Assembly (NCBI GenBank): GCA_025359505.1
Contig: JANYHH010000113.1
Location: 1-54,115 of the forward strand
Direction: 5' to 3'
From: Deinococcales bacterium
GTDB lineage: Bacteria; Deinococcota; Deinococci; Deinococcales; JAAFIG01
Length of the DNA: 54,115 bases
Part shown: piece by piece, positions 1-54,115 of the stretch
Layout: every line of letters starts with the position of its first letter
Numbering within the stretch: the stretch's first letter is position 1
Program-made: the position numbers and the translations under genes
The notes under the pieces: generated by a model
Database searches by the model: none
Told to the model about the DNA's origin: nothing
The model's input: the letters and a program-made list of their open reading frames with translations, nothing else

Positions 1-1
1 A

Positions 2-121
2 CGGATAGCATTGAATTTGTTGAATCTCGAGAAGGAGTTACGTATTTCTAAGCGTCGTCAGCGGTTGAAAGCGTTGATGAGCGATGATTATTTGCGCTCG
101 TTGCTTGGACTGACGGCTTGA
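2..121 (+). CDS. ISAs1-like transposase, C-terminal end only (cut by window edge)
   Basis: The reading frame is open from base 2 and ends at the TGA at 119-121, giving 39 residues that begin RIALNLLNLEKEL and end DDYLRSLLGL. The pattern of an ALNLL helix, a basic KRR stretch and a DDYL..LLG end resembles the C-terminus of ISAs1 (H-repeat) family DDE transposases. Only the tail is present, so it cannot be said whether the element is intact. The copy lies directly upstream of the SRP RNA gene. Family assignment rests on a short segment. Confidence 0.55.
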   Translation, partial: RIALNLLNLEKELRISKRRQRLKALMSDDYLRSLLGLTA

Positions 122-158
122 CTTGGTGCGTTTGCCCTGACGAACCACCACGTAGCCC

Positions 159-187
159 TTGCGTCTATCGCGTGGCTGACCTATACT
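159..187 (+). promoter_or_regulatory. promoter of the SRP RNA gene
   Basis: A -35 box TTGCGT (159-164) and a -10 box TATACT (182-187) are separated by exactly 17 bases. Transcription would start near 194, which is where the folded SRP RNA begins. Confidence 0.75.
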
Positions 188-193
188 TTGCGA

Positions 194-297
194 CGCGCTG
201 CCAGCGTAACGCGGTGGTGGCTCTCGAATCAGGTCAGGGTCGGAAGACAGCAGCCTTAAGGGATGACCATCAGGTGCCGTTGCCCACTGGCAGCGTG
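194..297 (+). ncRNA. ffs: signal recognition particle RNA (4.5S type, small SRP RNA)
   Basis: This is the RNA core of the signal recognition particle, which binds Ffh and guides inner-membrane proteins to FtsY. The conserved domain IV is visible: GGTCAGG at 232-238, a GTC-GGAA-GAC tetraloop hairpin at 239-248, the asymmetric AGCAGCC strand at 249-255, and closing TGACC at 264-268. The ends pair through CGCTGCCAG (196-204) with CTGGCAGCG (287-295). Length is about 104 nt, typical of the small bacterial form without an Alu domain. A promoter sits 7 nt before the 5' end. The 62-codon open frame across this locus is not a gene. Confidence 0.92.
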
Positions 298-318
298 CTT
301 CGTTGAAAAAATAGCTTA

Positions 319-383
319 TACGGATTCCGTTAAATCACTTCATCTATTTTTGCAAATAGATTGCGTTCAGCACGGAATCCGTA
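319..383. repeat. inverted repeat TACGGATTCCGT / ACGGAATCCGTA with nested hairpin
   Basis: Perfect 12-base arms at 319-330 and 372-383 enclose a second hairpin (CTATTT-TTGC-AAATAG). A T-run follows the right arm (GTTTTTCC), so the structure could terminate the SRP RNA transcript. More palindromes follow up to about 430: GCCCT-CT-AGGGC, AAAATTCCTTAAGGAATTTT-like dyads, and a CGGAATTCGTA variant of the arm. This could be a terminator, the end of the neighbouring insertion element, or a small palindromic mobile repeat. There is no CTCGAG in this stretch. Confidence 0.6.
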
Positions 384-439
384 GTTTTTCCTATGCCCTC
401 TAGGGCAGAAAATTCTTAAGGAATTTTCCGGAATTCGTA

Positions 440-1090: not shown

Positions 1091-1193
1091 TGCTCACCGC
1101 CCCTCGAGTTGAGTGGTTCTAAGCGCTCGAGCCAAACCGTGCAGCCAAACAAAAGGGAGCGCCAGTCGCAGCGCCCCCTCGAGCCTGCAAGAC

Positions 1194-1799: not shown

Positions 1800-1901
1800 C
1801 TCAAATCCTCCAAAAGCGGCGCTCGAGCGCGGTATTCAAAATAGCTCGAGCTGCGTAGAAACCCTGTCAAACCTTTTGGTCAGATGCAGGCAGCGCTGGC
1901 G

Positions 1902-3571: not shown

Positions 3572-3625
3572 TCAGCGCCAAATTCAAAGCTCGAGCCTCG
3601 AGCGCAGTGCTACGATGCAGACCTC

Positions 3626-8761: not shown

Positions 8762-8769
8762 ACTTGATG

Positions 8770-8804: not shown

Positions 8805-9647
8805 GTGATTGCCCCCGAACCCACTCCCCTCGAGACCCAGCGGGACGCCGCGTGGAAACTCGAGGAATTCGTGCAAGAGGTCAACACGCGCCTCTTGGCG
8901 AGGCTGCCCAGCGATCAATACGACGCTCGGCAGCGGGAGGATTTCTCAGTCCGGCTGCTGCGGCATTACAGCAGTCTGGGTTTGGTCGACGAATCCGAGC
9001 GCATCGGACGCGAGGCGCTGTACCGCTACCGCCACCTGCTGCAAGTCTTGTGTCTGAGAACGTTGCAGCGCGAGGGTTGGAATTCCAAAGCCATCGCGGG
9101 CTTCTGTAGCCGCGACTCGGGCGAACTCGAGGCCTTCCTAAACGGGCGAGACCCCGCTTTGCAAAGCGAACTCGAGGAATTCCAAGCCAGCCGCGCAGCA
9201 CCTCGAGCAGCCGCACCGACCCAAGCAACGCTCGAGAAAACCGCATCCAGCCCAACCATCGCTCGATCAGCCGCGCCAAGCCGAAACATCAGCCAAGCGA
9301 TCAGCCAAAAAAGTGCGAAGCTTGAGGTCGCCGATCAGATGCCCGCGCTGCTCGAGCTGAAAGAGGAGAGCGGGCGCGAATCGGCACTGGATTTCCTGCA
9401 AGGTCTCCGCGCCCGCCGCAGCCTGAGTCCCACGCAAGCCATGCCCGCGCCACTGCCCGCGTTCCTGTTGCACGACCCGCCGCGCCAGCCCGAACGCTGG
9501 AAGCGCACTGAAATCGCGCCCGGCTTGGAGCTGCACGTCTCGGATCGTTACCGCCGCGCCCGCAGCAGCAGCGACAAGAACCGCTTGCTCGAGGTGATCG
9601 GCACGACCTTAGAAACCGCACTGTTCGAGCCAACCGAAAGCACCTGA
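8805..9647 (+). CDS. MerR-like DNA-binding regulator
   Basis: 280 residues from the leaderless GTG. Residues about 45-110 match a MerR-type winged helix: SVRLLRHYSSLGLVDESER is the typical helix-turn-helix/wing start, followed by ALYRYRHLLQVLCLRTLQ and EGWNSKAIAGF. The middle (about 125-180) is Ala/Ser/Pro-rich and probably disordered. The C-terminal part (about 200-275) has no motif I know. It is followed after 80 bases by a VWA-domain gene in the same direction, so the regulator may control that gene. No effector-binding cysteines of metal-sensing MerR proteins are seen. Confidence 0.68.
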   Translation: MIAPEPTPLETQRDAAWKLEEFVQEVNTRLLARLPSDQYDARQREDFSVRLLRHYSSLGLVDESERIGREALYRYRHLLQVLCLRTLQREGWNSKAIAGFCSRDSGELEAFLNGRDPALQSELEEFQASRAAPRAAAPTQATLEKTASSPTIARSAAPSRNISQAISQKSAKLEVADQMPALLELKEESGRESALDFLQGLRARRSLSPTQAMPAPLPAFLLHDPPRQPERWKRTEIAPGLELHVSDRYRRARSSSDKNRLLEVIGTTLETALFEPTEST

Positions 9648-9727
9648 GTCACGCTCGAGTCGCTACCCGTCCGCGTTTCTAACTGTGGATTAACCTCGCA
9701 TTCTCACACCTAAAAGGAGCGTTTCCC

Positions 9728-10948
9728 ATGCAACCACACATTGAAATCATCAGCGAGAAAATCCAAGCCAATCAACTCGGCACGCAGTTACACGCGCTGA
9801 TCCGCATTCACGCGCCCGCCGCGCCCCGCAACCCAACCCGCATTCCCCTCAACCTCGCGCTGGTTTTAGACCGCAGCGGCAGCATGAGCGGCGCGAAACT
9901 CGAGTACGCCAAGGCCGCCGCCAAGTACGTGATGGAGCGCTTGGAAGCCGAGGATCGCGTGTCCGTGATCGCCTTCGACGATACCGTCGAAGTGGCGCTG
10001 CCCAGCACGCCCGCCGGCAAAGTCAACATCCAGCGCGTGCTGGACGCGATCCAAGATCGTGGCAGCACGAATTTGCACGGCGGTTGGCTCGAGGGGGGCA
10101 CGCAGGTCGCGTCGCAAATGCGCCCCGGTGCGCTGAACCGCGTGATGGTGCTGTCGGACGGTCTGGCGAACGCTGGGGAAACCAACACGGATCGCATCGC
10201 CAGCGACGTGCGCGGACTGGCGGCCAGAGGCGTGACGACCACGACTTTGGGGGTCGGGCGCGATTTCGACGAGGACATGATGCAGGCGATCGCCACCGCT
10301 GGCGACGGCAATTACCACTTCATCGAGCATCCAACCGCGTTGCCGCACATCTTTGCTGGTGAGCTGGCTGGTTTAAAGAACAGCTTCGCCCGCACGGTCA
10401 GCCTCGGACTCGAGGTCAGTCACGGCGTGCAGGTGCTGGATGTCCTCAATGACGCACCGCGCAACCCGCGAGGGCGGTTGATGCTGCCCAACCTGATGTA
10501 CGCCAGCACGCTCGAGGTGCTGGTCAAGCTCAGCCTGCCCCCCCACAGTGATGCCAAGCCGCTCGAGGCGCTGCGGGTGCGTTTGGCGTACACGCCCTCC
10601 AGCGGGGAAACGCGCACCGTCCAGCGCGAGGCACTGCACTTGCACGCGGTCAGCGACGCCGCGTACCGAAGCTTGAACGCTCACCCGAGCGTGCTCGAGG
10701 CGCTGGCGCTGTTGGAAAGCAGCCGCGCAAAAGCCGAGATGATCGCCTATTTGGATCGCGGCGACAAGGAGAGCACGTCGGCGCTGATCGGCGCACAGTA
10801 CGCTGCGCTGGCCGCCGCGCCCGCCAGCCCGAAGATCGCACAGGAAATGCAGGCGCTCGAGGAACTGAAAAGCGACCTCGAGCGCGACGCGTCGGTGATG
10901 CGTAAACGCGCCAGCTCGCAGCGTTACGCCAAGCAACGCGGAAATTGA
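9728..10948 (+). CDS. von Willebrand factor A (VWA) domain protein
   Basis: 406 residues, no signal peptide, probably cytosolic. The VWA domain (about 40-215) has a complete metal-ion-dependent adhesion site: D48-x-S50-x-S52 in LDRSGSMSG, the Thr in GSTNLHGG, and the Asp in VLSDGLANAG. A beta-rich domain (about 220-310) and a helical tail with charged coiled-coil character (about 350-406) follow. The start has AAGGAG 9 bases upstream. VWA proteins of this build usually act as scaffolds or partners of other proteins; the partner is not evident here beyond the adjacent MerR-like gene. Confidence 0.85.
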   Translation: MQPHIEIISEKIQANQLGTQLHALIRIHAPAAPRNPTRIPLNLALVLDRSGSMSGAKLEYAKAAAKYVMERLEAEDRVSVIAFDDTVEVALPSTPAGKVNIQRVLDAIQDRGSTNLHGGWLEGGTQVASQMRPGALNRVMVLSDGLANAGETNTDRIASDVRGLAARGVTTTTLGVGRDFDEDMMQAIATAGDGNYHFIEHPTALPHIFAGELAGLKNSFARTVSLGLEVSHGVQVLDVLNDAPRNPRGRLMLPNLMYASTLEVLVKLSLPPHSDAKPLEALRVRLAYTPSSGETRTVQREALHLHAVSDAAYRSLNAHPSVLEALALLESSRAKAEMIAYLDRGDKESTSALIGAQYAALAAAPASPKIAQEMQALEELKSDLERDASVMRKRASSQRYAKQRGN

Positions 10949-11933: not shown

Positions 11934-13352
11934 ATGAACGCGCCCCTCGATCAGTTGAAAAAAGCGCTCTCTGATAAAGTGCGCACGAGTGCGACCGAGA
12001 CGCTGTTGTACCGTTACGACGCCATCGCGCAGGGGCCCGCGCCCGTCGCGGTGGTGCTGGCGGAATCGACGCAGGACATTGCCACGACGCTGCGGCTGTG
12101 CCATGACGCGGGCTTCGCGGTCGTGCCACGCGGCGGCTCGAGCGGCTTGTCGGGCGGGGCCGTGCCGATTGGGCCGTGCGTGATGATCGCCACGAACCGC
12201 ATGACGCAACTGACGATTGATCCCGTGCAACGCACCGCGAGGGCGCAACCGGGCGTGATTACCGATATGGTCAGTAAAACTGCCAAACCGCACGGTTTGT
12301 ACTACGCGCCCGACCCCGCCTCGAGCCGCCAGAGCACGATTGGCGGCAACATCGCCGAGAACGCGGGTGGGCCGCAATGCCTGAAAAAAGGCGTGACGGG
12401 CGATAGCGTGTTGGAACTCGAGTTCGTCACCTCAGATGGCACAGTGCAGCGCATGGATCGCACGGGATTGGACATTCCGGGCTTGATAATCGGCTCCGAA
12501 GGCACGCTGGCCTTCGTGACCGACGCGCTCTTAAAACTCGAGCCGATCCCTGTCTTCACGCGCACCGCCTTCGCGGTTTTCCACGACCTCGGCAAAGCGG
12601 GCCGCGCCGTGGCGCTCATCACCGCCAAGGGCCTGACGCCCGCCAAGCTCGAGCTGATGGATCAAAACAGCATTCGCGCCGTCGAAGCCTTCATGCAGAT
12701 GGGTTTGCCGGTGGACGCCGAAGCGCTGCTGGTCTGCGATTGCGACGGCGATGATCTGGGCGTCGTGACGCTCGAGATCGAGGCTGTGGAAGCGGCGTTC
12801 AAAGAAGCGGGCGCGACGACGGTCAAACTCGCGCAGACGCTCGAGGAGGCTGGTCTGCTCTGGAAAGCCCGCCGCAGCGTCTCGCCCGCGCTCGGAAACT
12901 TGCGCCCGCACCGTTTCAACGAGGATATCGTCGTGCCGCGCAGCCATTTAGAGCCAGCGATGCGCGAGATGCGCGAGGTCGCGCTGCACTACCCGCAGTT
13001 CCCGTTTGCGATCTTCGGACACGCTGGTGACGGTAATTTGCATCCCAACATTCTCTTTGACCGCACCAAAGACTCACTCGAGCAAGTGGACGAATTCGCG
13101 CACGAGATCGCAAGGGTCGCACTGCGTCACGGCGGTGTGCTCAGCGGCGAGCACGGCATTGGGCTGATGAAGCGCGGCTTCATGACCGAAGCCACGCCCG
13201 CCGCGACATTGGAAGCGTATTGGCGCATCAAACGGGCCTTCGACCCGCGAGGCATCATGAACCCCGGCAAGTTGCTGCCGGATGCGAGCGCCAGCCAGCC
13301 GCCGCCGCGCACGGGCTTGCCCGCCAGTGAGCTTGATCTGACGACGTACTGA
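11934..13352 (+). CDS. FAD-linked oxidase, GlcD / D-lactate dehydrogenase type
   Basis: 472 residues. Oxidises a 2-hydroxy acid (glycolate or D-lactate type) with FAD. The N-terminal FAD-binding 4 (PCMH) domain has [14 protein letters not shown] near 75-88 and the [20 protein letters not shown] stretch. The C-terminal FAD-oxidase domain has [16 protein letters not shown] and [17 protein letters not shown] with the conserved histidines. The start at 11934 is supported by TAGCCT (11921-11926) 7 bases upstream, a leaderless arrangement. No GlcE or GlcF partners are adjacent, so a single-subunit dehydrogenase is more likely than a complete GlcDEF glycolate oxidase. The exact substrate is not decided by sequence. 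Confidence 0.87.
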
Positions 13353-13483: not shown

Positions 13484-14719
13484 TCACGCGCTGAGCGTTA
13501 ACAAAGTCTGCGCGAGGACTTGGATGCCGCGCTCGATATCCTCGGGCGCAGCGTACTCGTCGGGGCGGTGCGACACGCCGCCCCTGCACGGAATGAAAAT
13601 CATCGCCACCGGGCAAATCCGTGCCATGAACAGGCTGTCGTGATAGGCGCGGCTGACCATCTCCAAGCGGCTCGAGCCAGTTTGGTCGCACGCGTTTCTG
13701 ATCGCCTCGAGCAAGCTCGGGTCACACGCGGCCGGCGGATCGCTGTTGATGACCTCGAGCCTGTCACTCACCCCGCGCCGCTCGCAGATTCGTTTGGTCG
13801 CCTCGAGCACCGCGTTCATCGTTGCATCGCGCCGCGCAGCGTCGGTGTCGCGGATGTCGACGCCCATCATGACCGCGCTGGGAATCGAGTTGATCGCGCC
13901 CGGATGCAACTCCAGTAACCCAGTCGTGCCAACCGTGTCGATCGCGCCCGTCGCCAGCGCCGCCCGTTCGACCTCGAGCGCGATTTCAGAGGCTGCCAGC
14001 AGCGCGTCGCGTCTGCCCGGCATCAGCCGCGCTCCGGCGTGACCGCCCTCGCCGGTCAGGTGCAAGAAGAAACTGGCTGGCGCGGCAATCGCGCTCACGA
14101 CACCAATCTCGAGCTGTTGCTGCTCGAGTAGCGGGCCCTGCTCGATGTGCAATTCCACGAAGCCCGCGTAGTAACTCTGTGGCAATCGCACACCCTCGAG
14201 CGGCGCGGTGTACCCCACGTTCCCTCGAGCCGCCTCGAGCGTCACGCCATCGGCGTCCTTCAAACCGCGCAATCCCTCGAGCGATACCGTACCGCTCAGC
14301 GCCCGCGATCCCAAGCAGCCCAGCCCGAAGCGCGTCGGCTCCTCGGCTGTGAACATCAATAACTCTAAGCTGCGGCGCGGTTTCGCGCCGCTTGCCGCAA
14401 TCGCCATCAGCGCCTCGAGACCACCCAGCACGCCGACCGTGCCGTCATATCGCCCACTGTACGGAATCGCGTCGCAGTGCGATCCCGTGCCAACCGCGCT
14501 CAGACTCGCGTCTGACCCCTCGAGCCGAATGAAGGTGTTGCCAAGGGCGTCCTCGCGCCACTGTAAGCTCGCACTGATCGCCAAGCCTTTCAGCCAAGCC
14601 CGCATCGCCATGTCCTCGGGCGTCCACAACACCCGCGTCACGGCTGGCGATGGAACGCTCGAGAAACCCGCCAGTGTCTCGAGGTTTCCCATCACGCGCT
14701 GCAAATCAATCTGCACCAT
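13484..14719 (-). CDS. M20 family amidohydrolase (N-carbamoyl-amino acid / allantoate type)
   Basis: 411 residues, a zinc peptidase-fold hydrolase that removes carbamoyl or similar groups from amino-acid derivatives. The family metal motifs are present: GTGSHCDAIPYSGRYDGTVGV (in two parts, near 77-97) with metal-binding His and Asp, TAEEPTRFG near 125-133 with catalytic Glu pair, and FVELHIEQGPLLE near 185-197. The dimerisation domain with the GGEGHAG-like GEGGHAGA is near 220. It is divergent from the ABC substrate-binding gene, with 78 bases between, and the two may act on the same imported compound (inference). TAGAAT lies 5 bases before the ATG. Confidence 0.85.
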   Translation of the reverse strand: MVQIDLQRVMGNLETLAGFSSVPSPAVTRVLWTPEDMAMRAWLKGLAISASLQWREDALGNTFIRLEGSDASLSAVGTGSHCDAIPYSGRYDGTVGVLGGLEALMAIAASGAKPRRSLELLMFTAEEPTRFGLGCLGSRALSGTVSLEGLRGLKDADGVTLEAARGNVGYTAPLEGVRLPQSYYAGFVELHIEQGPLLEQQQLEIGVVSAIAAPASFFLHLTGEGGHAGARLMPGRRDALLAASEIALEVERAALATGAIDTVGTTGLLELHPGAINSIPSAVMMGVDIRDTDAARRDATMNAVLEATKRICERRGVSDRLEVINSDPPAACDPSLLEAIRNACDQTGSSRLEMVSRAYHDSLFMARICPVAMIFIPCRGGVSHRPDEYAAPEDIERGIQVLAQTLLTLSA

Positions 14720-14797
14720 GACGCATTCTACCTGACCCCTTTCTTGCTCGAGAAGGACAGGTTATGCTCTACCTCGCACAAACTTTTAGGAGGAATT

Positions 14798-16588
14798 ATG
14801 AAGCAACGCCTGTCCAAACTCGCGCTCGCGTTCGGCGTGGTCGGCATCACCGCCGCCGCGTTCGTCGCCATCGCCGCACCCCCGCCCAGCGCCAAAAGAA
14901 TGCCGAACTACTCGCAGATCGGTTTGACGCCCGGCAAGGCCGGCGGCACACTGACGCTCGCCATTGGCAGCGCCCCGCAGACGTTCATGTATTACGGCGC
15001 GATTGACTCGGCCGGTCAGCGCGTCGCGCAGCACATGTTCGATGGTTTGATCGAAAGCAACATCGCCACAGGTAAAATTGAGCCAGCGCTCGCGGAAAGC
15101 TGGACGATCTCGCCGGACGGCAAGGTCTACACGTTTAAGCTGCGCCAAGGCGTCAAATGGCACGATGGCGTGGAGTTCACGGCCGACGATGTGGTCTTCA
15201 CTTACGACCAGATCATCACCAACCCCGAAGCCAAGGGCGGCGATTTCAACAATTTTTCAGCGGGCGGCGTCAAATTTAAATTTGACAAACTAGACAAGTA
15301 CACTGTGCGCTTCACGCTGCCATTCTCATCAGGCGCGTTTCTGGTGCAGATGCGCGGCTTCATCATGCCCAAGCATCAACTGCTCAAATACACCGTCGAG
15401 GGCGGCGGAAAAGCGGCCGACATCAACGGTGCGTGGGCGACCAATGCCGACCTGAAAACCATTGTCGGCACGGGGCCATTTGAGCTGAGCAGTTACACGG
15501 TTAACCAAAAAGTGGTGATGGTCAAGAACCCCGATTACTGGAAGGTCGACAGCAGCGGCACGCAATTGCCCTACATCGACAAGCTCGAGCTGCTGGTTTT
15601 GGTCGGGCCGCAGGCGCAGGAGGCAGCGTTCAAGAACGGTACTTTGGACGCGCTGGACATCAGTGGTGCACAGTTCCCGGATTACAAAACCCAAGAGCGG
15701 GCGGGCGCGAAGCTCAGCGTCGTCTCGCAACTCAAAGACGCGATTTACGGCTCGCCACCGCATCTGGCCTTCAACCAAGATGCCAAAGACAGTGACTTGG
15801 CCAAAGTTTTCAGCAACTACAAATTCCGCGAGGCGATCCAGTTCGCCGTCAACCGCGAGCGCATTATCAGCGATGTCTACAACGGTCAAGCGCAACTGCC
15901 CGGTCACATGGGCGTGCCACCGGCCGGGCGCTTCTATACCAACACCAAAAACTACCTCGGCAGCTTCGACCTGAAAGCCGCCAATGCCGCGCTGGACGCG
16001 CTGGGGTACAAAGACACCGACGGAGACGGCGTGCGAAACATCCGCGCTGGCAAGCAACTCGAGTTCGCATTGACTTACGGCACGGACAGCGCCGTCTACC
16101 CAGCGATGGCGGCGATCTTCCAAAATGACTTCAAACAGATCGGCGTCAAAGTCAACTTAAAAGGCGTGCTCTCGAGCACGCTGCTGGGAACAGGTTTAGG
16201 CAAGGACTGGGAGACGATTTTCGTCGCACTGGGCGATCAGCCTGACCCAGAATTGCGTAAACCAATCTGGCAACCCGGCGGCAGCCTGTACTACTGGCAT
16301 CAGAGCACGCAACCCAAAACCCCCGGCGGGCCCGCCAACCGCGAGGCGATGACAAGCTGGGAGAAGCGCTTGTATGACATCTTCGATCAAGGCACGAAGA
16401 GCAGCAACCAGAACCAGCGTCTGGCGCTGTACCGCGAGGGGCAGCAGTTGCTGGCTAAATACATGCCGGTCATCATGATCGTCAAGCCTGCCAACATCAC
16501 GGTCGTGCGCGATACATTGCAAAACTTTGTGTACACCCTCGGCGTGATCCCCGGTTACAACCCCGTGCCGCTTTACTACTTTAAGTAA
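14798..16588 (+). CDS. ABC transporter substrate-binding protein, peptide/nickel family
   Basis: 596 residues, SBP_bac_5 (DppA/OppA) family. A Sec signal peptide (MKQRLSKLALAFGVVG to about residue 27) exports it. The mature protein shows family features: GGTLTLAIGSAPQTF near the start, LAESWTISPDGKVYTFKLRQ, VKWHDGVEFTADDVVFTYD and NPDYWKVD. I chose ATG 14798 because AGGAGG lies 6 bases upstream and the signal peptide starts there. A TATGCT box is at 14763-14768. It is a lone binding protein; no permease or ATPase gene is adjacent. A strong terminator follows at once. Confidence 0.92.
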   Translation: MKQRLSKLALAFGVVGITAAAFVAIAAPPPSAKRMPNYSQIGLTPGKAGGTLTLAIGSAPQTFMYYGAIDSAGQRVAQHMFDGLIESNIATGKIEPALAESWTISPDGKVYTFKLRQGVKWHDGVEFTADDVVFTYDQIITNPEAKGGDFNNFSAGGVKFKFDKLDKYTVRFTLPFSSGAFLVQMRGFIMPKHQLLKYTVEGGGKAADINGAWATNADLKTIVGTGPFELSSYTVNQKVVMVKNPDYWKVDSSGTQLPYIDKLELLVLVGPQAQEAAFKNGTLDALDISGAQFPDYKTQERAGAKLSVVSQLKDAIYGSPPHLAFNQDAKDSDLAKVFSNYKFREAIQFAVNRERIISDVYNGQAQLPGHMGVPPAGRFYTNTKNYLGSFDLKAANAALDALGYKDTDGDGVRNIRAGKQLEFALTYGTDSAVYPAMAAIFQNDFKQIGVKVNLKGVLSSTLLGTGLGKDWETIFVALGDQPDPELRKPIWQPGGSLYYWHQSTQPKTPGGPANREAMTSWEKRLYDIFDQGTKSSNQNQRLALYREGQQLLAKYMPVIMIVKPANITVVRDTLQNFVYTLGVIPGYNPVPLYYFK

Positions 16589-16611
16589 GCGCTCGAGTCT
16601 CGAGATTTTAA

Positions 16612-19769: not shown

Positions 19770-19788
19770 GTTGCTCGAGGACAACATC

Positions 19789-21753
19789 ATGTCTTTACTT
19801 GGTGAACTCTCCGTCCTGACCGCGCTGATTTTCTGCGTCTGGGGCGGCGTCAGTGCGTACCGCGCTGGTCAATCTCGAGACGCGAGTTTGGAAACCAGCG
19901 CTCGCCGCGCTGCAATCCTGACTTTTATCTTCTCGAGCTTTGCGATGGCGGTGCTGCTGACGGCACTGCTCTTAAACGATACATCGGTGCGTTACGTCGC
20001 CAATCACAGCGCCAATACCTCGCCATTGTGGGTCAAGATCGTCTCCTTGTGGGGTGCGCTCGAGGGCAGCATTCTGTTGTGGGCGTGGATGCTGGCGGGC
20101 TTCACGATGCTCGTGGCGCTGGTCGCTCGAGCCGACGGACTGCGCCCGTATGCGCTGATGACGTTGTTTGCGGTTTTGGCGTTTTTCTTGGGCGTCAACG
20201 CCAGTGTCGGCAGTCCGTTCATCGGCGTGCCAATCCCGCCACCTGACGGGCGCGGCCCGAATGCCTTACTGCAAAACCACTGGATGATGGCGGTGCATCC
20301 GCTGCTGATGTATACAGGTTTTGTCGGTTTGAGCGTGCCATTCGCGTATGCGGTCGCGGCACTCATCACTGGGCGCTTGGGCGAGGAGTGGCTGGTGCAG
20401 ACGCGGCGCTGGAGCATTGTCGCGTGGACGTTCCTCAGCGCGGCGATCATCGCGGGCGGTTGGTGGTCATACGAGGTGCTCGGCTGGGGTGGCTACTGGG
20501 CGTGGGATCCTGTAGAGAACGCCAGCGTGATCCCGTGGTTCATGGCGACGGCGTTCATTCACAGTTTGCAAATTCAGGAGCGCCGCCGGATGCTCAAAGG
20601 CTGGAATCTGGGCTTGATCGTCGCGGCGTTCACAACGACCCTGTTGGGAACTTTTCTCACCCGCAGTGGCGTCGTCCAGAGCGTCCACAGCTTCACGCGC
20701 ACACCCATCGGGCCGGTGTTTTTTGGGTTTTTCGCACTGGTGCTGATCGCTACATTAGCGTTAGCGTACCGCCGCCTGCCGCAGATCCGCGACGAGCATC
20801 AACTCGACAGCCCCGTCTCGAGGGAAGGCGCGTTTCTGACCGGCAATTTACTGTTCTCGAGCTTCGCGTTCACCGTGCTGGTTGGCACGTTGTTCCCAGT
20901 CTTTGTCGAAGCTTTCACGGGCGCGAAGACCAGCGTCGGGCCGCCGTTCTTTAATGCCGTCGGCATTCCGCTGGGACTGGCGATTCTGGCGCTGCAAGCG
21001 ATGGGGCCCGCGCTGACATGGCGACGCGCCACGGGCGAAACGTTGCGCCAGAATTTGCTCGTGCCAGCAATCCTTGCGCTGGTGATGGGGACGGTCACGT
21101 TCGCGCTCGGTGTGCGGCTGTGGGATGTCTGGCTGACGGTCGTGCTGGCGTTCTTCAACATCTTCGTGATCGTGCGCCTGACCCACAAAGCGATCAGTGC
21201 GAAAATAAGAGCCTCGAGACAAAACGTATTCGCGGCGATGGGCGATTTGCTGAATGCCTTCCCCCGTCGTTACGGCGCTTACTTAGCGCATCTGGGCGTG
21301 GTCGTGATCGCGCTGGGCATCGCGTTCAGCGGCGGGTACAAGACCGACCAGCAGGTGACGTTCACGAAAGGCGAAACCAAGCAGGTCATGGGACATGCCG
21401 TGACTTTTAGCGGCATCGTCGGGCAGAAAGAAGCCGAACGCGATGTCACGGCCGCCGAACTGACATTGGACGGCGGAAACGTCTATCCGCGCCAGAACTT
21501 CTACCGCGTGCAGCAGACGACGGTTGCGACGCCCGCGATTCAGTACCATCTGCTGGGCGACTTCTATGCGGTGTTTTTGGAGACCAACGACGCGGGTAGT
21601 CAGGTTGGCATCAAATTCATCAACAGCCCACTGATCGGCTGGATCTGGGTCGGCGGGCTGATCCTCATCATCGGCGCGGGCCTGACGCTGATTCCCAGCG
21701 TCGTCACCGAGTCTCGAGCCACTCACAGCGCGATGCAAGCCGCCACAGACTGA
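19789..21753 (+). CDS. ccmF: cytochrome c heme lyase subunit CcmF
   Basis: 654 residues with about 13-15 membrane helices. Ligates heme from CcmE to apocytochrome CxxCH motifs together with CcmH/CcmI. The WWD heme motif WGGYWAWDPVENASVIPW is at about 239-256, and the CcmF C-terminal domain follows (FSGGYKTDQQVTF near 510). ATG 19789 is chosen because GAGGA, formed by the end of a CTCGAG site, lies about 8 bases upstream. Confidence 0.95.
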   Translation: MSLLGELSVLTALIFCVWGGVSAYRAGQSRDASLETSARRAAILTFIFSSFAMAVLLTALLLNDTSVRYVANHSANTSPLWVKIVSLWGALEGSILLWAWMLAGFTMLVALVARADGLRPYALMTLFAVLAFFLGVNASVGSPFIGVPIPPPDGRGPNALLQNHWMMAVHPLLMYTGFVGLSVPFAYAVAALITGRLGEEWLVQTRRWSIVAWTFLSAAIIAGGWWSYEVLGWGGYWAWDPVENASVIPWFMATAFIHSLQIQERRRMLKGWNLGLIVAAFTTTLLGTFLTRSGVVQSVHSFTRTPIGPVFFGFFALVLIATLALAYRRLPQIRDEHQLDSPVSREGAFLTGNLLFSSFAFTVLVGTLFPVFVEAFTGAKTSVGPPFFNAVGIPLGLAILALQAMGPALTWRRATGETLRQNLLVPAILALVMGTVTFALGVRLWDVWLTVVLAFFNIFVIVRLTHKAISAKIRASRQNVFAAMGDLLNAFPRRYGAYLAHLGVVVIALGIAFSGGYKTDQQVTFTKGETKQVMGHAVTFSGIVGQKEAERDVTAAELTLDGGNVYPRQNFYRVQQTTVATPAIQYHLLGDFYAVFLETNDAGSQVGIKFINSPLIGWIWVGGLILIIGAGLTLIPSVVTESRATHSAMQAATD

Positions 21754-24638: not shown

Positions 24639-24710
24639 ATCGGTGAAGCTCGAGGGACGAGCACCTGCCTTTTAAGCAGTCGGAAACGGGTTCGAGTCCC
24701 GTCACCAAGA
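24639..24710 (+). tRNA. second tRNA-Lys(TTT)-like gene, degenerate acceptor
   Basis: It shares with the first copy an identical block from the end of the D-stem through the anticodon stem (24659-24679). The T-arm is canonical (ACGGG-TTCGAGT-CCCGT). The acceptor pairs at only five of seven positions (ATCGGTG against CACCAAG), and the D-loop GAGGGAC is short. A CTCGAG overlaps the D-arm. Confidence 0.55.
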
Positions 24711-38324: not shown

Positions 38325-41294
38325 TTAGAACGCGCCCTCGAGCGCTGCGAGGGCCGCGTCTGTATCTTTGACGCCCGCCTGCGCCATGTCGGGCCGCCCG
38401 CCGCCCTTGCCGCCCCCAGCCGCCGCGAGCTTGCCGATGAGTTGCCCCGCGTGCGCCCCCCTTGCCACGGCATCTTTACTGACCTTGACCGCCAGCCCGC
38501 CATCCGAAGCGACGACGACGATATCGGCTTTGCTTTTCTCCAGTAGATCATCCGCCGCACCGCGCAGCTCGTTACCGCTGACGCCAGTCAAACTGAGCCG
38601 CGCAATTTTAAACCCGCCCAGCTCGAGGTTATCCACGCTAGAGCCGCTGCCCGTTTGGGCTTGCATCAGCTTGGTTTTCAGCGCTGCGATTTCCTTGTCT
38701 TTGGCTTTGAACTCGTCCTGTAATTTCTCCAAACGTTCAGTCAGCATCTCGGTCGTTGTACCGAGCGCCCGTGCCGCCGCGCCTGTGCGCTCGAGCGTGT
38801 CGCGCACGAAGGCGGTCGCCGCCTCGCCCGTCAGCGCCTCGAGCCGCCGCACGCCCGCCGCGACGCCCTCCTCACTGGTAATCACGAAGCTGCCGATGCT
38901 GCCCGTGCTGGGGACGTGCGTACCGCCGCACAACTCCATGCTGCTGACCTCGGTCGCACCCGTCATCAACCCGCCTTGCACGCGCTCCAGAATCCCGACG
39001 CTCGAGACGCTGCCTTCGACGCTGACGACGCGCACGGTATCGCCGTATTTCTCGCCGAACAGCGCCATCGCACCAGTTTTGCGGGCTTCCTCGAGCGGCA
39101 TGAGTTCCGCCGTGACCGCGTAATCGGCTTGCACCCAGCGGTTGACGAGCTGCTCCACCTGCCGAATCTCGAGCGGCGTCAAAGCGCTGTTGTGCGTGAA
39201 ATCGAAGCGCAAGCGATCCGCGCTGACCAAGCTGCCTTTTTGCTGCACGTGATTCCCGAGCGTCGCCCGCAGTCCAGCTTGCAAGAGATGCGTCGCCGTG
39301 TGGTGCTTCTCAGTCGCCGCTCGCACGGCAACTTCCACCAGCGCCTCGAGACTCGAGTTGGATTGCAACGTGCCGCGCAGGATTTTCGCACTGTGTACAA
39401 AAACGCCCTGTGCGTTCTTCTGCGTGCCAGTCACGACCGCCGCGCCGCCGTTCCACTCGAGCCGCCCGGTATCGCCGACCTGCCCGCCGCCCTCGGCGTA
39501 GAACGGCGTTGCGTCCAGCACGATCTCCACGGATTCGCCCTCGGACACCGCGTCCACTCGAGCGCCGTCTTTGACGAGTGCGACGACACTGCTGTTGGAC
39601 AGATGCGAGTCGTACCCGACGAACTCCGTCGCCTCCAGCCCCTCGAGCGCGTCCGCACCGCCGCCGAACACGCCGTCTTTCTTGCCGTACTTGCTGCCCG
39701 CTCGAGCCAAAGCTTGGGCTTCTTTCAATGCGAGGTTATATCCGTCTTCATCAACGGCGACACCATACTCTTCAGCGATTTCTCGAGTCAGGTCAAGCGG
39801 AAAGCCAAAGGTGTCGTACAAGGTAAAAACTTCCGTGCCAGATAAAAAAACTTTATCGGGTGTTCTGTCCGTATCTACAACGCGCTGAACTTTTTTCAGG
39901 GTTTTCGCTAGACCAGAATCTGCAAAGAATTTATCTGCATAAAAGGACAGATTTAAACCAACGTCAATACCTTGAGACCAGTCAAAGCTTCCTGCGCTGT
40001 ACTTAAATTTCAAAACGTCAGCAGTACGCTTCTCCAAAGTGACTTCGTTATTACCTTCAGAATTAATAAAAGCACTCGCACCGGATTTGAATACCTCATA
40101 GTCTAGTTTTTTCAGCACATCCTCGAGCCGTTCGATGCCGTTCTCGAGGGTGCGTAGGAAGCGCTCCTCTTCTTGCTGTATCTGCTTAGCGACGCTCTCT
40201 TCAGCCGCGACCATCTCTGGGTACGCTTGCCCGAGCGTCTGCGCGACGATTGGCACGAGCTTGTACAGCGTCGGTTCTTTCATGCCCAGCAAATACGCGT
40301 GTCTCGAGGCGCGGCGCATGACTTTTCTGACGACGTATTCGCGCTCACTCGTGCCGAAGCTCACGCCGTCCGCGAGGGTCATGCTGACCATGCGGATGTG
40401 TTCGGCGATCACGCGATGTGACAGGCTTTTCATGCCTTCGTAGGGCTTGCCGCTTAGCTCCACAACGGCTTGAATCAGCGGTTTGAAATCGTCGGTATCG
40501 AACAAATCCGACACGCCCTGCGAGATAAACGCGGCGCGAATCATCCCTAGTCCCGTATCAATGTTCTTGCGCCCCAAATCCTCGAGTTCGCCCTTGCCGT
40601 CAGCGCCATCGGTGCGGTTGTAGCCGGGGAAGACGAGGTTCCAAAACTCGAGGAAGCGATCCGATTCTGGGTTGCTGGCGTAATCCTGCCACGTGTCTGC
40701 TCCAAACGCCTCGCCTCGGTCGTAGAAGATTTCAGAGCACGGCCCGCACGGGCCGTTGGGGCCTTTGAGCGGCGCGTTCTGCGGCCAGAAGTTCTCGTCG
40801 GCGTCAAAGCGATTGACACGACTCGCCTCGAGACCGACGTTTTGCGTCCAGTACGTGAAGGCTTCCTCGTCGTCTTTGTAGATCGTTACGTAAATTCGGC
40901 TTGGATCGTAGCCGAGCCATTCTGGGCTGGTGATGAACTCCCACGCCCATTCGATGGCTTCCTTTTTGAAGTAACTGTCGAGACTGAAATTGCCAAGCAT
41001 TTCAAACAAGCTGCAATGTCTCGAGGTGCGCCCGACGTTTTCGATGTCCGTGAGGCGGATGCACTTTTGAGCCGTGGTCACGCGTTTGTGTTCGCCTTCG
41101 TGTCCGGGGAAGTTGGCGGGTGCGCCGACGAACTGCGGTTTGAATTGCACCATGCCCGCGATACTGAACATCAATGTCGGATCGCCGTACACGGGAATCG
41201 GGTGCGATGGGAAGCGCAGATGCCCTTTTGATTCAAAGAACTTCAGGAACATCTCGCGGATTTGGTTGGTGCTTAAGTATCTTGGCTCGAGCAT
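38325..41294 (-). CDS. alaS: alanyl-tRNA synthetase with an unusual insertion
   Basis: Charges tRNA-Ala and edits mischarged Ser/Gly. 989 residues against about 870-890 in most bacteria. Catalytic domain about 1-360 (MFLKFFESKGHLRFPSHPI; NVGRTSRHCSLFEMLGNFS), editing domain with HHTATHLL and CGGTHVPSTG, then a C-Ala domain with GGGKGGGRPDMAQAG. The extra length lies mainly at residues about 397-482 (39850-40105), an AT-rich segment with no counterpart between LEDVLKKL and LSGTEVFTLYDTFGFP. ATG 41294 is leaderless: TATACT (41307-41302) and 7 bases. The longer frame opening at 41327 is not preferred. Confidence 0.95.
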   Translation of the reverse strand: MLEPRYLSTNQIREMFLKFFESKGHLRFPSHPIPVYGDPTLMFSIAGMVQFKPQFVGAPANFPGHEGEHKRVTTAQKCIRLTDIENVGRTSRHCSLFEMLGNFSLDSYFKKEAIEWAWEFITSPEWLGYDPSRIYVTIYKDDEEAFTYWTQNVGLEASRVNRFDADENFWPQNAPLKGPNGPCGPCSEIFYDRGEAFGADTWQDYASNPESDRFLEFWNLVFPGYNRTDGADGKGELEDLGRKNIDTGLGMIRAAFISQGVSDLFDTDDFKPLIQAVVELSGKPYEGMKSLSHRVIAEHIRMVSMTLADGVSFGTSEREYVVRKVMRRASRHAYLLGMKEPTLYKLVPIVAQTLGQAYPEMVAAEESVAKQIQQEEERFLRTLENGIERLEDVLKKLDYEVFKSGASAFINSEGNNEVTLEKRTADVLKFKYSAGSFDWSQGIDVGLNLSFYADKFFADSGLAKTLKKVQRVVDTDRTPDKVFLSGTEVFTLYDTFGFPLDLTREIAEEYGVAVDEDGYNLALKEAQALARAGSKYGKKDGVFGGGADALEGLEATEFVGYDSHLSNSSVVALVKDGARVDAVSEGESVEIVLDATPFYAEGGGQVGDTGRLEWNGGAAVVTGTQKNAQGVFVHSAKILRGTLQSNSSLEALVEVAVRAATEKHHTATHLLQAGLRATLGNHVQQKGSLVSADRLRFDFTHNSALTPLEIRQVEQLVNRWVQADYAVTAELMPLEEARKTGAMALFGEKYGDTVRVVSVEGSVSSVGILERVQGGLMTGATEVSSMELCGGTHVPSTGSIGSFVITSEEGVAAGVRRLEALTGEAATAFVRDTLERTGAAARALGTTTEMLTERLEKLQDEFKAKDKEIAALKTKLMQAQTGSGSSVDNLELGGFKIARLSLTGVSGNELRGAADDLLEKSKADIVVVASDGGLAVKVSKDAVARGAHAGQLIGKLAAAGGGKGGGRPDMAQAGVKDTDAALAALEGAF

Positions 41295-41323
41295 AACGCG
41301 CAGTATACGAGAGCAGGCGAAGG

Positions 41324-41435
41324 GCAAAAGGCGAAGGGAAGTGCCGTGAGTGGTACGAAGCTGGCTCGGGCGGTGCGGTTCCCACAGGGGTCGTCTCGAG
41401 GACGTTGATTTTTACTTTCGCCCTTCGCCTTTTGC
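41324..41435. repeat. 15-base inverted repeat upstream of alaS
   Basis: GCAAAAGGCGAAGGG (41324-41338) and its exact complement (41421-41435) are 82 bases apart, in the gap between the divergent alaS and UbiA genes. The left arm lies just upstream of the alaS -10 box. It could be a small mobile element or a regulatory fold. The neighbouring GGCGAAGGGC repetition is slipped and simple. Confidence 0.6.
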
Positions 41436-50694: not shown

Positions 50695-50847
50695 CCTGCC
50701 ATTCTCGCTCGAGATCGCCGTTTGATTTGCGCTCGAGGGCAAGATTGGCGCGGCGGGTTCTCGGCCTGAATTCGAGATGACTCGAGCCTCGTCACGCTTT
50801 TGGTGTGGGGCTGCGCGGTTGAAAGGGCGCAACATGGCGTCTTGAGG

Positions 50848-50916
50848 CGCAAAGCATGCACCTTCGGGCTGGGTCGCTTCTTGACCGCAAAGCATGCACC
50901 TTCGGGCTGGGTCGCT
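50848..50916 (+). repeat. 31-base direct repeat, two copies, 38-base period
   Basis: CGCAAAGCATGCACC followed by TTCGGGCTGGGTCGCT occurs at 50848-50878 and again, identical, at 50886-50916. The second copy runs into GCGACCCTACGG, a GTAGGG-family palindrome, and into the segment similar to 45024-45100. It lies in the 346-base gap between the methyltransferase and plsX; no gene is seen there. Confidence 0.8.
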
Positions 50917-51040
50917 GCGACCCTACGGTTTTTCGCTCACACATCTGAATACGTCCTTAGACTCGAGCCACGACAAAAATCTAGACGAGATTCGCAGCCT
51001 CAGGCAGTCACTTGAGACGCGGGTGCTAAAATCCAGCGCG

Positions 51041-52084
51041 ATGAGTTCTTTACCGATTGCACTGGACGCGATGGGCGGCGATCATGCGCCAGCCGCGACC
51101 TGCGAAGGCGCGGTGCTGGCTGCCCGCGAAGGCATTGCCGTTACGCTGGTCGGGCGCGAAGCCGATTTGCGGCGCGAACTCGAGCGCTTTGCGGACTCGA
51201 GCCGCTTGAAAATAACGATCGTTCATGCCTCGGATGTGATCGGTATGGACGATCACGCGACGGTGACGCGCAAAAACAAAAACCTCTCGATCAATGTCGC
51301 CATGAACCTGCTGCGCCAAAAAACAGTCAGCGCGGTGGTCGCGCAGGGTCACACCGGCGCGACATTGGTCAGCGCGTTGTTCGGCTTGGGGCGCTTGCCG
51401 GGCGTCGAGCGCCCCGCGATTCTGTCGAACTTCCCCAATAAAACCGGGCGGATCACCTTGGTTGATGTCGGCGCGAACGCCGATAACCGCCCGGAGTTCC
51501 TGCAAGGCTTCGCGCTGATGGGCAGCGCTTACGTCAGCGCGATGCAGGGCAACGACTCGCCCAGCGTGGGACTGCTGAGCATCGGTGAAGAAGAGGGCAA
51601 GGGCAACGCGTTGACTTTGGAGACGTATGACCTGCTCAAAGTCACGCCGGGCATTCGCTTTCACGGCAACGTCGAAGGGCGCGACATTTTTACGGGAACG
51701 GTCGATATCGTCGTCACCGACGGCTTCACGGGTAACATTGTCTTAAAAGCGGCCGAAGCCGAAGCCAAAGTGATGATCGGTTGGATCAAAGAAGCCCTGA
51801 CGGGCGGGAATCTGTTGACCAAAATTGGCGCGGCGCTGGTGCGCCCCGCGCTGAGAAGTGTCGCGGATAAGCTTGACCCCAACGAGTTCGGCGCTCAGCC
51901 GCTGCTGGGCGTCAAGGGACTGGTCTTCATCGGTCACGGCTCGAGCAACGCCAGAGCCGTCTACAGCGCCCTGAAATTCGCCGCTCGAGCCGTGGACGCG
52001 GGGCTGCTGGAGAAAGTCGCTTCAAGACTCGAGGTCATGACGAGGAAGCTCGAGACGACGCAGATTCCCGTAGAGACGCCGTGA
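51041..52084 (+). CDS. plsX: phosphate acyltransferase PlsX
   Basis: Makes acyl-phosphate from acyl-ACP for glycerophospholipid synthesis at the inner membrane. 347 residues with IALDAMGGDHAP (5-16), VVAQGHTGATLVSALFGLGR, LVDVGANADNRPEFLQGFA and GLVFIGHGSSNARAV. The ATG 51041 is preferred because homology starts there; the open frame to 50894 is repeat-derived. A TAAAAT box lies 8 bases upstream (51027-51032). Overlaps the next gene by GTGA. Confidence 0.94.
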   Translation: MSSLPIALDAMGGDHAPAATCEGAVLAAREGIAVTLVGREADLRRELERFADSSRLKITIVHASDVIGMDDHATVTRKNKNLSINVAMNLLRQKTVSAVVAQGHTGATLVSALFGLGRLPGVERPAILSNFPNKTGRITLVDVGANADNRPEFLQGFALMGSAYVSAMQGNDSPSVGLLSIGEEEGKGNALTLETYDLLKVTPGIRFHGNVEGRDIFTGTVDIVVTDGFTGNIVLKAAEAEAKVMIGWIKEALTGGNLLTKIGAALVRPALRSVADKLDPNEFGAQPLLGVKGLVFIGHGSSNARAVYSALKFAARAVDAGLLEKVASRLEVMTRKLETTQIPVETP

Positions 52085-52971
52085 TCGAGGATCGGCTGAA
52101 CCGCTGGCTGGCGGCGAGTCTCGAGGTGCTGCCGAGCCTGTTGCTGACGGTGCTGTGCGCGTTGCTGGCGCTGTGGCTGATGCGACGACTGGCGGCCAAG
52201 GTCACGGTCAGTCAGGGCTTCACGCGCCGCACCGTGCGAACCGACACCCTGCGCGGTGTGCTGACCAGCGCGTTGACAGTCGTAATTTACGTGGTCGGCG
52301 GCGCAGCGATTCTCGGCGAACTCGGCGTCAACGTCGCAGCGCTGCTGGCGGGCGTCAGCATCTTCGGACTGGCGATCAGCTTCGGGGCGCAGAGTTTGGT
52401 GAAAGACGTGATTACCGGGTTCTTCGTGCTGTTGGAAGATCAGTACGGTGTTGGCGACGTGATTCGCGTCAACGGCCAAGCTGGACTTTCTGGCGCGGTC
52501 GAAAGCCTGAACCTACGCGTGACCGTGCTGCGCGACCTCGACGGGACGGCTCACGTGATTCCCAACTCTGAAATCAAAACCGTCAGCGTGCTCTCTAAAG
52601 ACTGGGCTAGGGTCGTCGGCGATATCGACGTGCCGCACGATTACCCGCTCGAGGACGCGCTCAAAACACTGCTCGAGGTTGCCAATGGTTTACACGACGA
52701 TCCCGCGTGGCGGGACAAGTTCCTCGAGCGGCCAGAAATGCTCGGCGTGCAAACCCTCAGCGCTGCCAACGTGACGATTCGCATTTTGATGAAAGTTCAG
52801 CCCAAAGAGCAGTGGGGCGTATCACGCGAGTTCAAACGCCGCGTTAAAAACGCGCTCGAGGGGCTGGGTGTTCGGTCGTCACTGCCACAGATGAGCCTCG
52901 CGCTGCCAGCCGCCTTGCAGGTCGGTGACTCGAGCAGTGCTGGCTCGAGCAGCCCAAGCGAAGCGCGTTGA
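52081..52971 (+). CDS. small-conductance mechanosensitive channel (MscS family)
   Basis: 296 residues. Three membrane helices; the pore helix is the Gly/Ala-rich LLAGVSIFGLAISFGAQSLVKD (in two parts, about 95-116), followed by the beta domain with GVGDVIRVNG and RDLDGTAHVIPNSEI, and an alpha/beta tail ending in a Ser-rich stretch. Opens on membrane tension to release solutes. GTG 52081 overlaps the plsX stop, so the two are co-translated. Confidence 0.92.
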   Translation: MIEDRLNRWLAASLEVLPSLLLTVLCALLALWLMRRLAAKVTVSQGFTRRTVRTDTLRGVLTSALTVVIYVVGGAAILGELGVNVAALLAGVSIFGLAISFGAQSLVKDVITGFFVLLEDQYGVGDVIRVNGQAGLSGAVESLNLRVTVLRDLDGTAHVIPNSEIKTVSVLSKDWARVVGDIDVPHDYPLEDALKTLLEVANGLHDDPAWRDKFLERPEMLGVQTLSAANVTIRILMKVQPKEQWGVSREFKRRVKNALEGLGVRSSLPQMSLALPAALQVGDSSSAGSSSPSEAR

Positions 52972-52989
52972 GCGCCGTCGATAACCGCT

Positions 52990-54115
52990 CTACGCTCCGC
53001 CGGGTTTGGGCAGCAGCGGCGGGATGAAACCGCCCGACTCTGGTTTGCTGCTCGGTGGTTTGACTGGCTCGCGCTCCTGCTCCACGGGCGGCAGTGGGAA
53101 GCCCTCGATCAAGAGCTGCACTTCCTCGCCCGTCAGCGTTTCGCGCTCGAACAAGCCATTCACCACGCGCAGTACAGCCTCGCGGTTCGTCTCGAGCAGG
53201 GTTTTGACGCGGCTGTACTGATCTTCGATGATCTCGCGCACTTCGGCGTCGATGGCTTTGGCGGTCGCATCGCTGTAATTGCGGCTCTCGCTGGCGTACC
53301 CCAAGTAGCCCTCGCTCTCGACGATGTGTGCGACATGCCCGAGGCGTTCACTCATGCCCCACTCCGCCACCATCCGCCGGGCGATGCTCGTGCCCTGCTG
53401 GAAATCCTGCTGAGCGCCCGTGGTGACATCGCCGACGAACAGCTCCTCAGCCACGCGTCCGCCGAGCGTCGTGGCGATCTCGTCCAAAAGCCGCAACTTG
53501 GTGTAGTGCATCGTCTCAGTCGGCATCGGCAGCATGTACCCGCCAGCGCGGCCACGTGGCACGATCGTCAATTTATGCGTTTTGTTGGCCAGCGGTAGCA
53601 GGTTCGCCGTGACTGCGTGACCCGCCTCGTGATACGCCACCAATTGCCGATCCACCTCGAGCACCTGCTTGGATTTGCGGGCGGGCCCCATGCTGACCCG
53701 ATCCGACGCCTCATCCAAGTCCTTCATGCTGACTTTCCGGCGTCCAGCTCGAGCGGCTAGGAGCGCCGCCTCATTCAGTAGGTTCTCGAGATCCGCGCCC
53801 ACAAAGCCCGGTGTGCGCCGCGCCACGACCCTGAGATCCACGTTCTCCTCGAGCGGCTTCTTCCTCGAGTGAACCCTGAGAATCTCCTCTCTGCCTTTGA
53901 CATCCGGTGCGTCGACCACGACTTGCCGATCGAACCGTCCGGGTCGTAAGAGCGCCGCATCCAGCACATCCGGGCGGTTGGTCGCGGCGAGGATGATGAT
54001 GTCACTCTTGGTTTCAAAGCCGTCCATCTCGACTAATAATTGATTCAGTGTTTGTTCGCGCTCGTCGTTGCCTCCACCCATGCCGCTCCCGCGCTTCCTG
54101 CCCACGGCGTCGATC
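52990..54115 (-). CDS. ftsH: ATP-dependent zinc metalloprotease FtsH, C-terminal part (cut by window end)
   Basis: Membrane AAA+ protease. Present are the part after Walker B ([19 protein letters not shown]), the second region of homology [20 protein letters not shown], the zinc site HEAGH in [13 protein letters not shown], the [20 protein letters not shown] stretch with the third zinc ligand Asp, and a proline-rich end [10 protein letters not shown]. The frame is open to the window edge, so the N-terminal transmembrane part and Walker A lie beyond 54115. Convergent with mscS, 18 bases apart. Confidence 0.95.

Follow-up and report, generated by a model that had tools for sequence, protein, structure and literature searches.

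A highly iterated CTCGAG palindrome in the genomes of an uncultured Deinococcales bacterium and its relatives

The window and its CTCGAG sites

The stretch of DNA analysed here, referred to as the window, is the 54,115-nucleotide contig JANYHH010000113.1 of a Deinococcales bacterium (assembly GCA_025359505.1), and the element in question is the palindromic hexamer CTCGAG, which is dispersed through all of it. The window is one contig of the source genome G000 (4.23 Mb in 127 contigs, 91.8% complete). The best named relatives of its alanyl-tRNA synthetase come from three metagenome genomes of Deinococcales, L001, L003 and L004, with 69–79% identity in the best segments; the loci in question carry 6.0–6.6 CTCGAG per kb at a G+C content of 0.47–0.54. 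The bacterium is uncultured and related to Thermus and Deinococcus. The features referred to below are the following.

1..54115, no strand assigned: 356 dispersed CTCGAG sites, 6.58 per kb (word counts and shuffles)
14108..14752, no strand assigned: dense stretch with 11 CTCGAG in 645 bases (word count)
19774..19779, plus strand: CTCGAG that overlaps the GAGG upstream of ccmF (ATG at 19789), a likely ribosome-binding sequence (sequence context)
24649..24654, plus strand: CTCGAG within an Rfam tRNA match at 24639–24710
3590..3602, no strand assigned: two sites at a spacing of 7, CTCGAGnCTCGAG, the sole short spacing that is undepleted in the pooled genomes
16592..16604, no strand assigned: a second such pair, CTCGAGnCTCGAG, followed by ATTTTAAAG (sequence)
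38325..41327, minus strand: alanyl-tRNA synthetase, which placed the genome among Deinococcota and lies outside the motif system

An earlier note, made from the letters of the window, had called CTCGAG highly iterated throughout, and its counts by eye were all exact (8 in 1–1200, 8 in 9001–10000, 7 in 12001–13000 and 11 in 14001–15000). The 356 copies in the window compare with 21.3 ± 4.3 (maximum 31) in 100 dinucleotide-preserving shuffles. Base composition predicts 17.6 copies and a third-order Markov model 84.1, the latter being inflated because the motif's own tetramers feed the model. CTCGAG stands at the extreme of the 64 palindromic hexamers. The same note had named a genome-wide count near expectation, or an excess restricted to the window, as grounds for dropping the idea, and neither was found. 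The whole genome contains 27,118 copies (6.41 per kb, about one per 156 letters) and nine of the reversed word GAGCTC; a 454-kb sample of it contains 2894 against 146 expected, and the excess over the base-composition prediction is about 20-fold. CTCGAG has the large genome-wide excess and the dispersal through coding and noncoding DNA that are expected of a highly iterated palindrome (HIP). Sites had also been placed in ribosome-binding sites and tRNA-like genes. CTCGAGG at 19774–19780 indeed provides the GAGG upstream of the ccmF start codon. The tRNA location stands in part: one site falls within the Rfam match, but ARAGORN called no tRNA anywhere in the window.

CTCGAG is the single strong exception to a general avoidance of palindromes in the window's own family, which comprises four genomes (G000, G001, G002 and G003). 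The 63 other palindromic hexamers, pooled, reach 0.36 of expectation in the window and 0.34–0.52 in the sampled family genomes, and GGCGCC, CCGCGG, GAGCTC and TGCGCA are nearly eliminated in G000, G002 and G003. A special coupling of the CTCGAG excess to the scarcity of GAGCTC (4–15 copies per family genome) is not claimed because GAGCTC is one of about 12 strongly avoided palindromes, GGCGCC, CCGCGG and TGCGCA among them. CCWGG does not occur at all in the window (neither as CCAGG nor as CCTGG, against about 46 expected), and RTCGAY and GGCC-centred words are also avoided in G002 and G003.

The extreme density is confined to few of the genomes compared, most of which are metagenome assemblies. 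Six of the 101 genomes of the order exceed 4 CTCGAG per kb, namely all four family members (5.9–6.4) and both genomes of genus g11, which belongs to a different family (6.2 and 7.7, the second value from a genome only 58% complete; densities use rounded genome sizes). The remaining 95 have 0.3–3.6 per kb. Meiothermus has 1.9–2.4 per kb (seven loci), a 40-kb stretch of an Allomeiothermus silvanus plasmid has 54 copies against 13.7 expected, and a 40-kb stretch of Deinococcus radiodurans MP1 has 8 against 13.2. A moderate excess is thus widespread in one part of the phylum, and the extreme density is lineage-specific. Family density holds steady at 5.9–6.4 per kb while the G+C content of the sampled stretches spans 0.45–0.60; three G012 stretches consisting of N throughout were left out of the composition rows.

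At least 120 viral stretches were counted as well, and most of those listed resemble G+C-rich phages. Four of them (L377, L360, L378 and L324; G+C 0.64–0.70) have 5.3–6.8 CTCGAG per kb, or 15–20 times expectation, and avoid palindromes in general little or not at all. In L359, a 2.5-kb stretch of a viral contig with a G+C content of 0.42, the 12 copies amount to 28.7 times expectation, GAGCTC is missing and other palindromes stand at 0.26. L359 bears the signature of the family and perhaps derives from a virus or provirus of the family that has acquired the motif.

Reading frames, codon pairs and spacing

Coding and spacing tests were run on 454 kb of G000, 85 kb of G001 (this sample counts the named locus L001, treated as a close relative of G001), 880 kb of G002 and 695 kb of G003, with mechanical calls of the longest open reading frames as genes. 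The motif is read in all frames, as had been noted, and in each it exceeds what the proteins and codon use predict in all four family members: 4.3–11.8 times as CTC GAG, 10.7–23.1 times as NCT CGA GNN and 10.2–22.4 times as NNC TCG AGN. Strictly intergenic density compares with overall density, per kb, as 8.70 with 6.37 in G000, 7.48 with 6.70 in G001, 5.03 with 5.76 in G002 and 5.64 with 6.08 in G003. Excess in every frame together with this intergenic density implies that the motif belongs to the DNA and not to the proteins alone.

The effect reaches the protein sequence. The Leu-Glu pair is over-represented 2.21–2.42 times in family proteins; the Meiothermus loci give 1.49 and genome G008 gives 1.98. 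In the window it reaches 2.68 times expectation, and 181 of its 253 Leu-Glu pairs are CTCGAG. The motif is probably the cause of the raised Leu-Glu. The suggestion that it accounts for most CTC and CGA codons went too far, since only 181/452 CTC (0.40) and 35/108 CGA (0.32) of the window lie inside a site, along with 181/527 GAG (0.34) and 77/233 TCG (0.33). In G002 the shares are 0.51 for CTC and 0.53 for GAG.

Further side observations concern placement relative to genes. Within the first 40 nt past stop codons CTCGAG reaches 16–18 per kb in G000 (the window and L188–L207) and 6.8–7.7 in G002 and G003. Of the sites up to 100 nt past stops, 33/273 are followed by TTTT in G000 (0.12; background 0.09), 33/143 in G003 (0.23; background 0.17) and 63/179 in G002 (0.35; background 0.18), and a link to terminators is possible in G002. 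Some genes are nearly free of CTCGAG. Judged by eye from their translations, those assigned to G000 resemble transport-binding proteins (L193 12527–13637 and L190 2996–4763), and those assigned to G002 are a low-G+C pair resembling surface-polysaccharide genes (L160 17424–19822). They are perhaps highly expressed or recently acquired.

The sites exclude one another at short range. In genes of the four family members, pairs of CTCGAG at spacings of 8–10 nt number 58 against 198.8 expected (0.29), at 11–13 nt 59 against 198.2 (0.30) and at 14–19 nt 215 against 394.7 (0.54); the ratio is 0.83 at 20–29 nt and 0.99 at 90–129 nt (2412 against 2425). At spacings of 8–10, 11–13, 14–19 and 20–29 nt, generic inverted hexamers of equal G+C give 0.74, 0.91, 0.93 and 0.93, and generic direct hexamers 1.22, 1.14, 1.05 and 1.14. 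Avoidance of hairpins was considered as the sole cause of the exclusion and rejected, generic inverted hexamers being only mildly avoided. In the window alone, where numbers are small, the 8–13 nt class is likewise depleted (4 against 13.9).

The exclusion persists when the amino acids are held fixed. In 1,098 genes with 7,997 Leu-Glu pairs, permuted within genes, a Leu-Glu that lies 8–14 nt from another site is coded CTCGAG at a frequency of 0.408 against 0.666 in permutations (n=392, z −10.9) and at 15–24 nt at 0.609 against 0.694 (z −6.1), while at 60–199 nt such coding is above expectation (z about 5). The 8–14 nt effect is present separately in G000, G002 and G003 and extends to about 40 nt in G002; in general the exclusion is mostly gone beyond 25–60 nt, where neighbouring sites are nearly independent. 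The coefficient of variation of the gaps is 1.00–1.06 in these three genomes, so that placement is near random apart from the short-range exclusion. Near a site, the use of CTC for other leucines and of GAG for other glutamates drops at most slightly (the largest drop is GAG in G000, 0.483 against 0.52–0.62). Partial motifs that match at five of six positions do not exclude one another (n=141, with a ratio of 0.97); this control and the tests in the other two frames use not permutation but gene means to which the tested pair itself contributes.

Site turnover and methyltransferases

Comparison of sites in orthologues, which the earlier note had proposed, shows that they are retained far above chance yet turn over. 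Orthologues were reciprocal best hits above 45% identity between partial genomes (59 pairs for G002/G003, 41 for G000/G002 and 19 for G000/G003); pairs with G001 (2 with G000, 8 with G002 and 6 with G003) were excluded from later tests, and synteny around the alanyl-tRNA synthetase is too weakly conserved for site-by-site comparison. In the G002/G003 pairs (mean amino-acid identity 75.8%), 220 of 369 aligned G002 sites are common to G003 against 2.5 under random placement. Fourfold sites are almost saturated, with an identity of 0.401 and an autocorrelation of 0.154. At conserved Leu-Glu the probability of CTCGAG in one species is 0.842 (149/177) when the other has it and 0.547 (41/75) otherwise. 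The site autocorrelation is 0.308 (bootstrap 95% 0.149–0.429; within-gene permutation P = 0.001), where a bias in gain only predicts 0, a constant fixation bias 0.68 and prevention of loss only 0.93. Loss prevention alone is thereby rejected, and constant selection fits only roughly. In a two-state reading, the gain of sites would run at about 15 times and their loss at about 0.11 times the rates of joint CTC and GAG states elsewhere; both rates are our arithmetic from the autocorrelation in this one species pair. In G000/G002 the autocorrelation is 0.10 (−0.14 to 0.33), and no prediction is possible.

XhoI/PaeR7I restriction-modification systems have CTCGAG as their target. None of the four family members has a match to the XhoI-family nuclease (PF04555), nor has either g11 genome, so no XhoI-type system in the strict sense was found. 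Nor was the Vsr repair gene found in any of the four or in either g11 genome, with matches in 4 of 61 genomes, and CTCGAG therefore does not qualify as a product of Vsr-type repair. XhoI-family nucleases occur in 4 of 61 genomes, three adjoining a beta-class methyltransferase and one, interrupted by stops, a gamma-class methyltransferase.

Methyltransferases themselves, searched with PF00145, PF01555 and PF07669 in 61 genomes each and with PF02384 and PF02086 in 17 each, are numerous in the family, with several per member. A clade-wide form of the solitary methylase that the earlier note had offered as one cause was not found among the 42 entries extracted, which include three or more duplicates and cover only part of the listed matches. 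Groups formed at 40% identity or more reach at most three of the five CTCGAG-rich genomes, the widest joining G002, G003 and G012. Reciprocal best hits between family genomes, taken above 45%, average 58–76% identity, so an ancient common methyltransferase, had it been extracted, would probably have stood out. Different enzymes with one target are conceivable because specificity is unreadable from sequence. For the gamma-class enzyme linked to the XhoI-family gene no strong homologue was found in the family (best 27%, in G000), and among the 13 g13 genomes compared the three with a strong homologue have 2.2–2.4 CTCGAG per kb and the ten without 1.4–3.1.

Elsewhere in the order, the stop-interrupted XhoI-family gene and its gamma-class neighbour lie in G009 (L211, L212 and L043), and homologues of the latter at 48–53% identity occur in the Meiothermus-like G015, G025 and G037, which lack a PF04555 match. 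In Oceanithermus-like genomes (L208, L209 and L210) an XhoI-family nuclease adjoins a beta-class methyltransferase, relatives of which (60–65%) are found, again without a PF04555 match, in three members of that family, G021, G024 and G027. Another beta-class methyltransferase (60–85% identity) is common to four Meiothermus-like genomes and G046 (L073, L076, L077, L079 and L075) and, judging from this conservation, is a possible conserved orphan enzyme.

Comparison with known systems and weighing of explanations

The parallel with HIP1 of cyanobacteria, drawn from the letters of the window, holds as an analogy: in both cases an over-represented palindrome is dispersed through genes and spacers, and here it sits in a genome that mostly avoids other palindromes. 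HIP1 (GCGATCGC), described in 1995 according to a reference quoted in PMC1939737, is likewise iterated in genes and spacers with strong excess and a lineage-specific strength (PMC4390886). Elhai's HIP model offers the closest published frame (PMC4390886). CTCGAG is nevertheless not HIP1 proper: it has six bases and HIP1 eight, the nearest named relatives of its host by alanyl-tRNA synthetase are Deinococcales and not cyanobacteria, and it reaches about 6,400 per Mb, whereas in Elhai's table HIP1 stands at 300–2700 per Mb for most cyanobacteria, one group excepted (PMC4390886). Unlike HIP1, it has no clade-wide matching methyltransferase among the extracted enzymes; the short-range exclusion reported here was measured for CTCGAG. 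No report of CTCGAG excess in Deinococcota was found among the literature matches listed, a coverage that mostly leaves out subscription journals.

DNA uptake sequences, too, are visible in the proteome. Those of Neisseriaceae and Pasteurellaceae are short, dispersed through genes and spacers and spread in a fixation-like manner (PMC1939737), and Karlin, as cited in the same text, reported their even spacing around the genome. CTCGAG differs in being palindromic, denser and nearly randomly spaced, as its gaps show, and in interacting over tens of nucleotides. Chi is a directional, non-palindromic word. CTCGAG shares with such recombination hotspots that it is short and over-represented, and differs in its symmetry and in the lack of any redundancy seen over kilobases.

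Our tentative preference is that CTCGAG is a HIP-type element that may be kept by weak selection as the site of a predicted dimeric DNA-binding protein covering about 20 bp. Exclusion over about 20 nt, followed by near-independence beyond 25–60 nt, favours steric competition for a bound protein. It makes functions that act over kilobases (Chi, strand signals in mismatch repair, uptake of fragments) unsuited because the interaction spans tens of nucleotides, and a purely mutational origin unsuited because the sites exclude one another. The predicted protein would be abundant, dimeric and sequence-specific, its footprint would be what the exclusion measures, and it would act genome-wide in the manner of a nucleoid-associated protein. 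Each copy would be under weak selection, which would be the force here rather than biased conversion; a lost site would be offset by a new one nearby, so that density and not exact position would be maintained.

Several observations weigh against this reading. Spacing 7 is undepleted (79 pairs against 71 pooled, 46 of them in called genes and 33 outside; 46 against 52.4 expected within genes only), a result not expected from a simple footprint, and in the window alone the 14–19 nt class is undepleted too (17 against 13.9). Part of the exclusion may be structural because mild avoidance of hairpins exists (0.74 at 8–10 nt). Turnover outpaces constant selection in G002/G003 (0.308 observed against 0.68 predicted), and in G000/G003 the autocorrelation is −0.05 (−0.29 to 0.20) where constant selection predicts 0.30; with that of G000/G002, it is compatible with zero, the value expected from a bias in gain only. 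Nor has a binding protein been identified, no systematic search for one having been made.

The causes that had been put forward were a methylase, a repair or recombination signal, and mutation bias. In a methylation-linked HIP, as Elhai envisages for HIP1, CTCGAG would be the target of an orphan methyltransferase, and sites would accumulate through methyl-directed repair or through some function that depends on methylation. Published HIP cases do accompany a matching methyltransferase (PMC4390886), every family member has several methyltransferases, and the order has methyltransferases adjoining XhoI-family genes, one type of which stands without PF04555 in three genomes. We nonetheless regard this as unlikely, given the lack of a clade-wide group among the extracted entries, the weak family homologues of the gamma-class enzyme, the indifference of g13 densities to its presence and an exclusion at 8–19 nt that methylation does not obviously predict; Halorubrum sp. 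BOL3-1, moreover, methylates CTCGAG, with just 560 sites listed for it (PMC8112702). The near-independence of sites beyond 25–60 nt speaks against a repair or recombination signal with a kilobase range. The same near-independence bears on CTCGAG as an uptake signal, which would favour import during natural transformation and be spread by recombination with imported DNA: if a single site per fragment is enough, redundancy should extend over fragment lengths. Relatives in the Deinococcota are known for natural competence, which counts towards this possibility, and known uptake sequences occur at about 0.8–1 per kb, which counts against it. Uptake sequences are likewise spread through genes and spacers by a fixation-like drive, but are described as non-palindromic (PMC1939737), and we consider the uptake explanation decidedly unlikely.

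A mutation or repair bias that creates CTCGAG, leaving the site without function, would agree with the roughly 15-fold gain and fast turnover in G002/G003, with the two autocorrelations near zero and with close to random placement beyond 60 nt. Gain alone predicts zero, however, where G002/G003 gives 0.308, and it offers no reason for the exclusion at 8–19 nt. Vsr was not found in the four family members, and no single-base neighbour of CTCGAG is depleted in all of G000, G002 and G003, unlike what a consumed precursor would leave. CACGAG, CGCGAG and CTAGAG stand at 0.56–0.78 in G002 and G003 but at 1.03–1.61 in G000, and transition neighbours are enriched 1.1–2.8 times. An apparent depletion of one-mismatch words in the window (GTCGAG, 8 against 47, Markov) vanishes once CTCGAG is masked (GTCGAG, 8.5 against 9.1, fourth-order); GTCGAG is still below its composition expectation of 17.6 in the masked window and at 0.94–1.21 of a second-order model in larger samples. 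A mutational origin is thus quite improbable. Avoidance of hairpins and restriction sites, combined with a strong codon-pair preference, could mimic a functional motif, and there is strong avoidance of other palindromes and, within genes, mild avoidance of inverted repeats. Avoidance is unable to generate a 20-fold excess, however, and the excess extends between genes and to three frames at ratios of 4 to 23; largely refuted already by the intergenic density, this explanation has hardly any probability left.

Returning to selection for a protein-binding site, a further-reaching form of it is conceivable though doubtful: the predicted protein would coat the chromosomes at about 27,000 CTCGAG, and selection for it would rewrite codon pairs and even amino acids, giving a HIP outside cyanobacteria that exceeds the tabulated HIP1 genomes in density and is independent of methylation. 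Work on why HIP1 exists has had cyanobacteria as its main material, and a second, unrelated lineage with a different and denser palindrome would allow comparative tests of the methyltransferase, of spacing rules and of turnover rates. Experiments are feasible because relatives with moderate excess, such as Meiothermus, include cultured species. The short-range exclusion is a measurable handle on the cause and can be searched for in HIP1 genomes. Finally, a DNA word that accompanies more than twice the expected number of an amino-acid pair suggests that protein composition may be shaped from the level of DNA.

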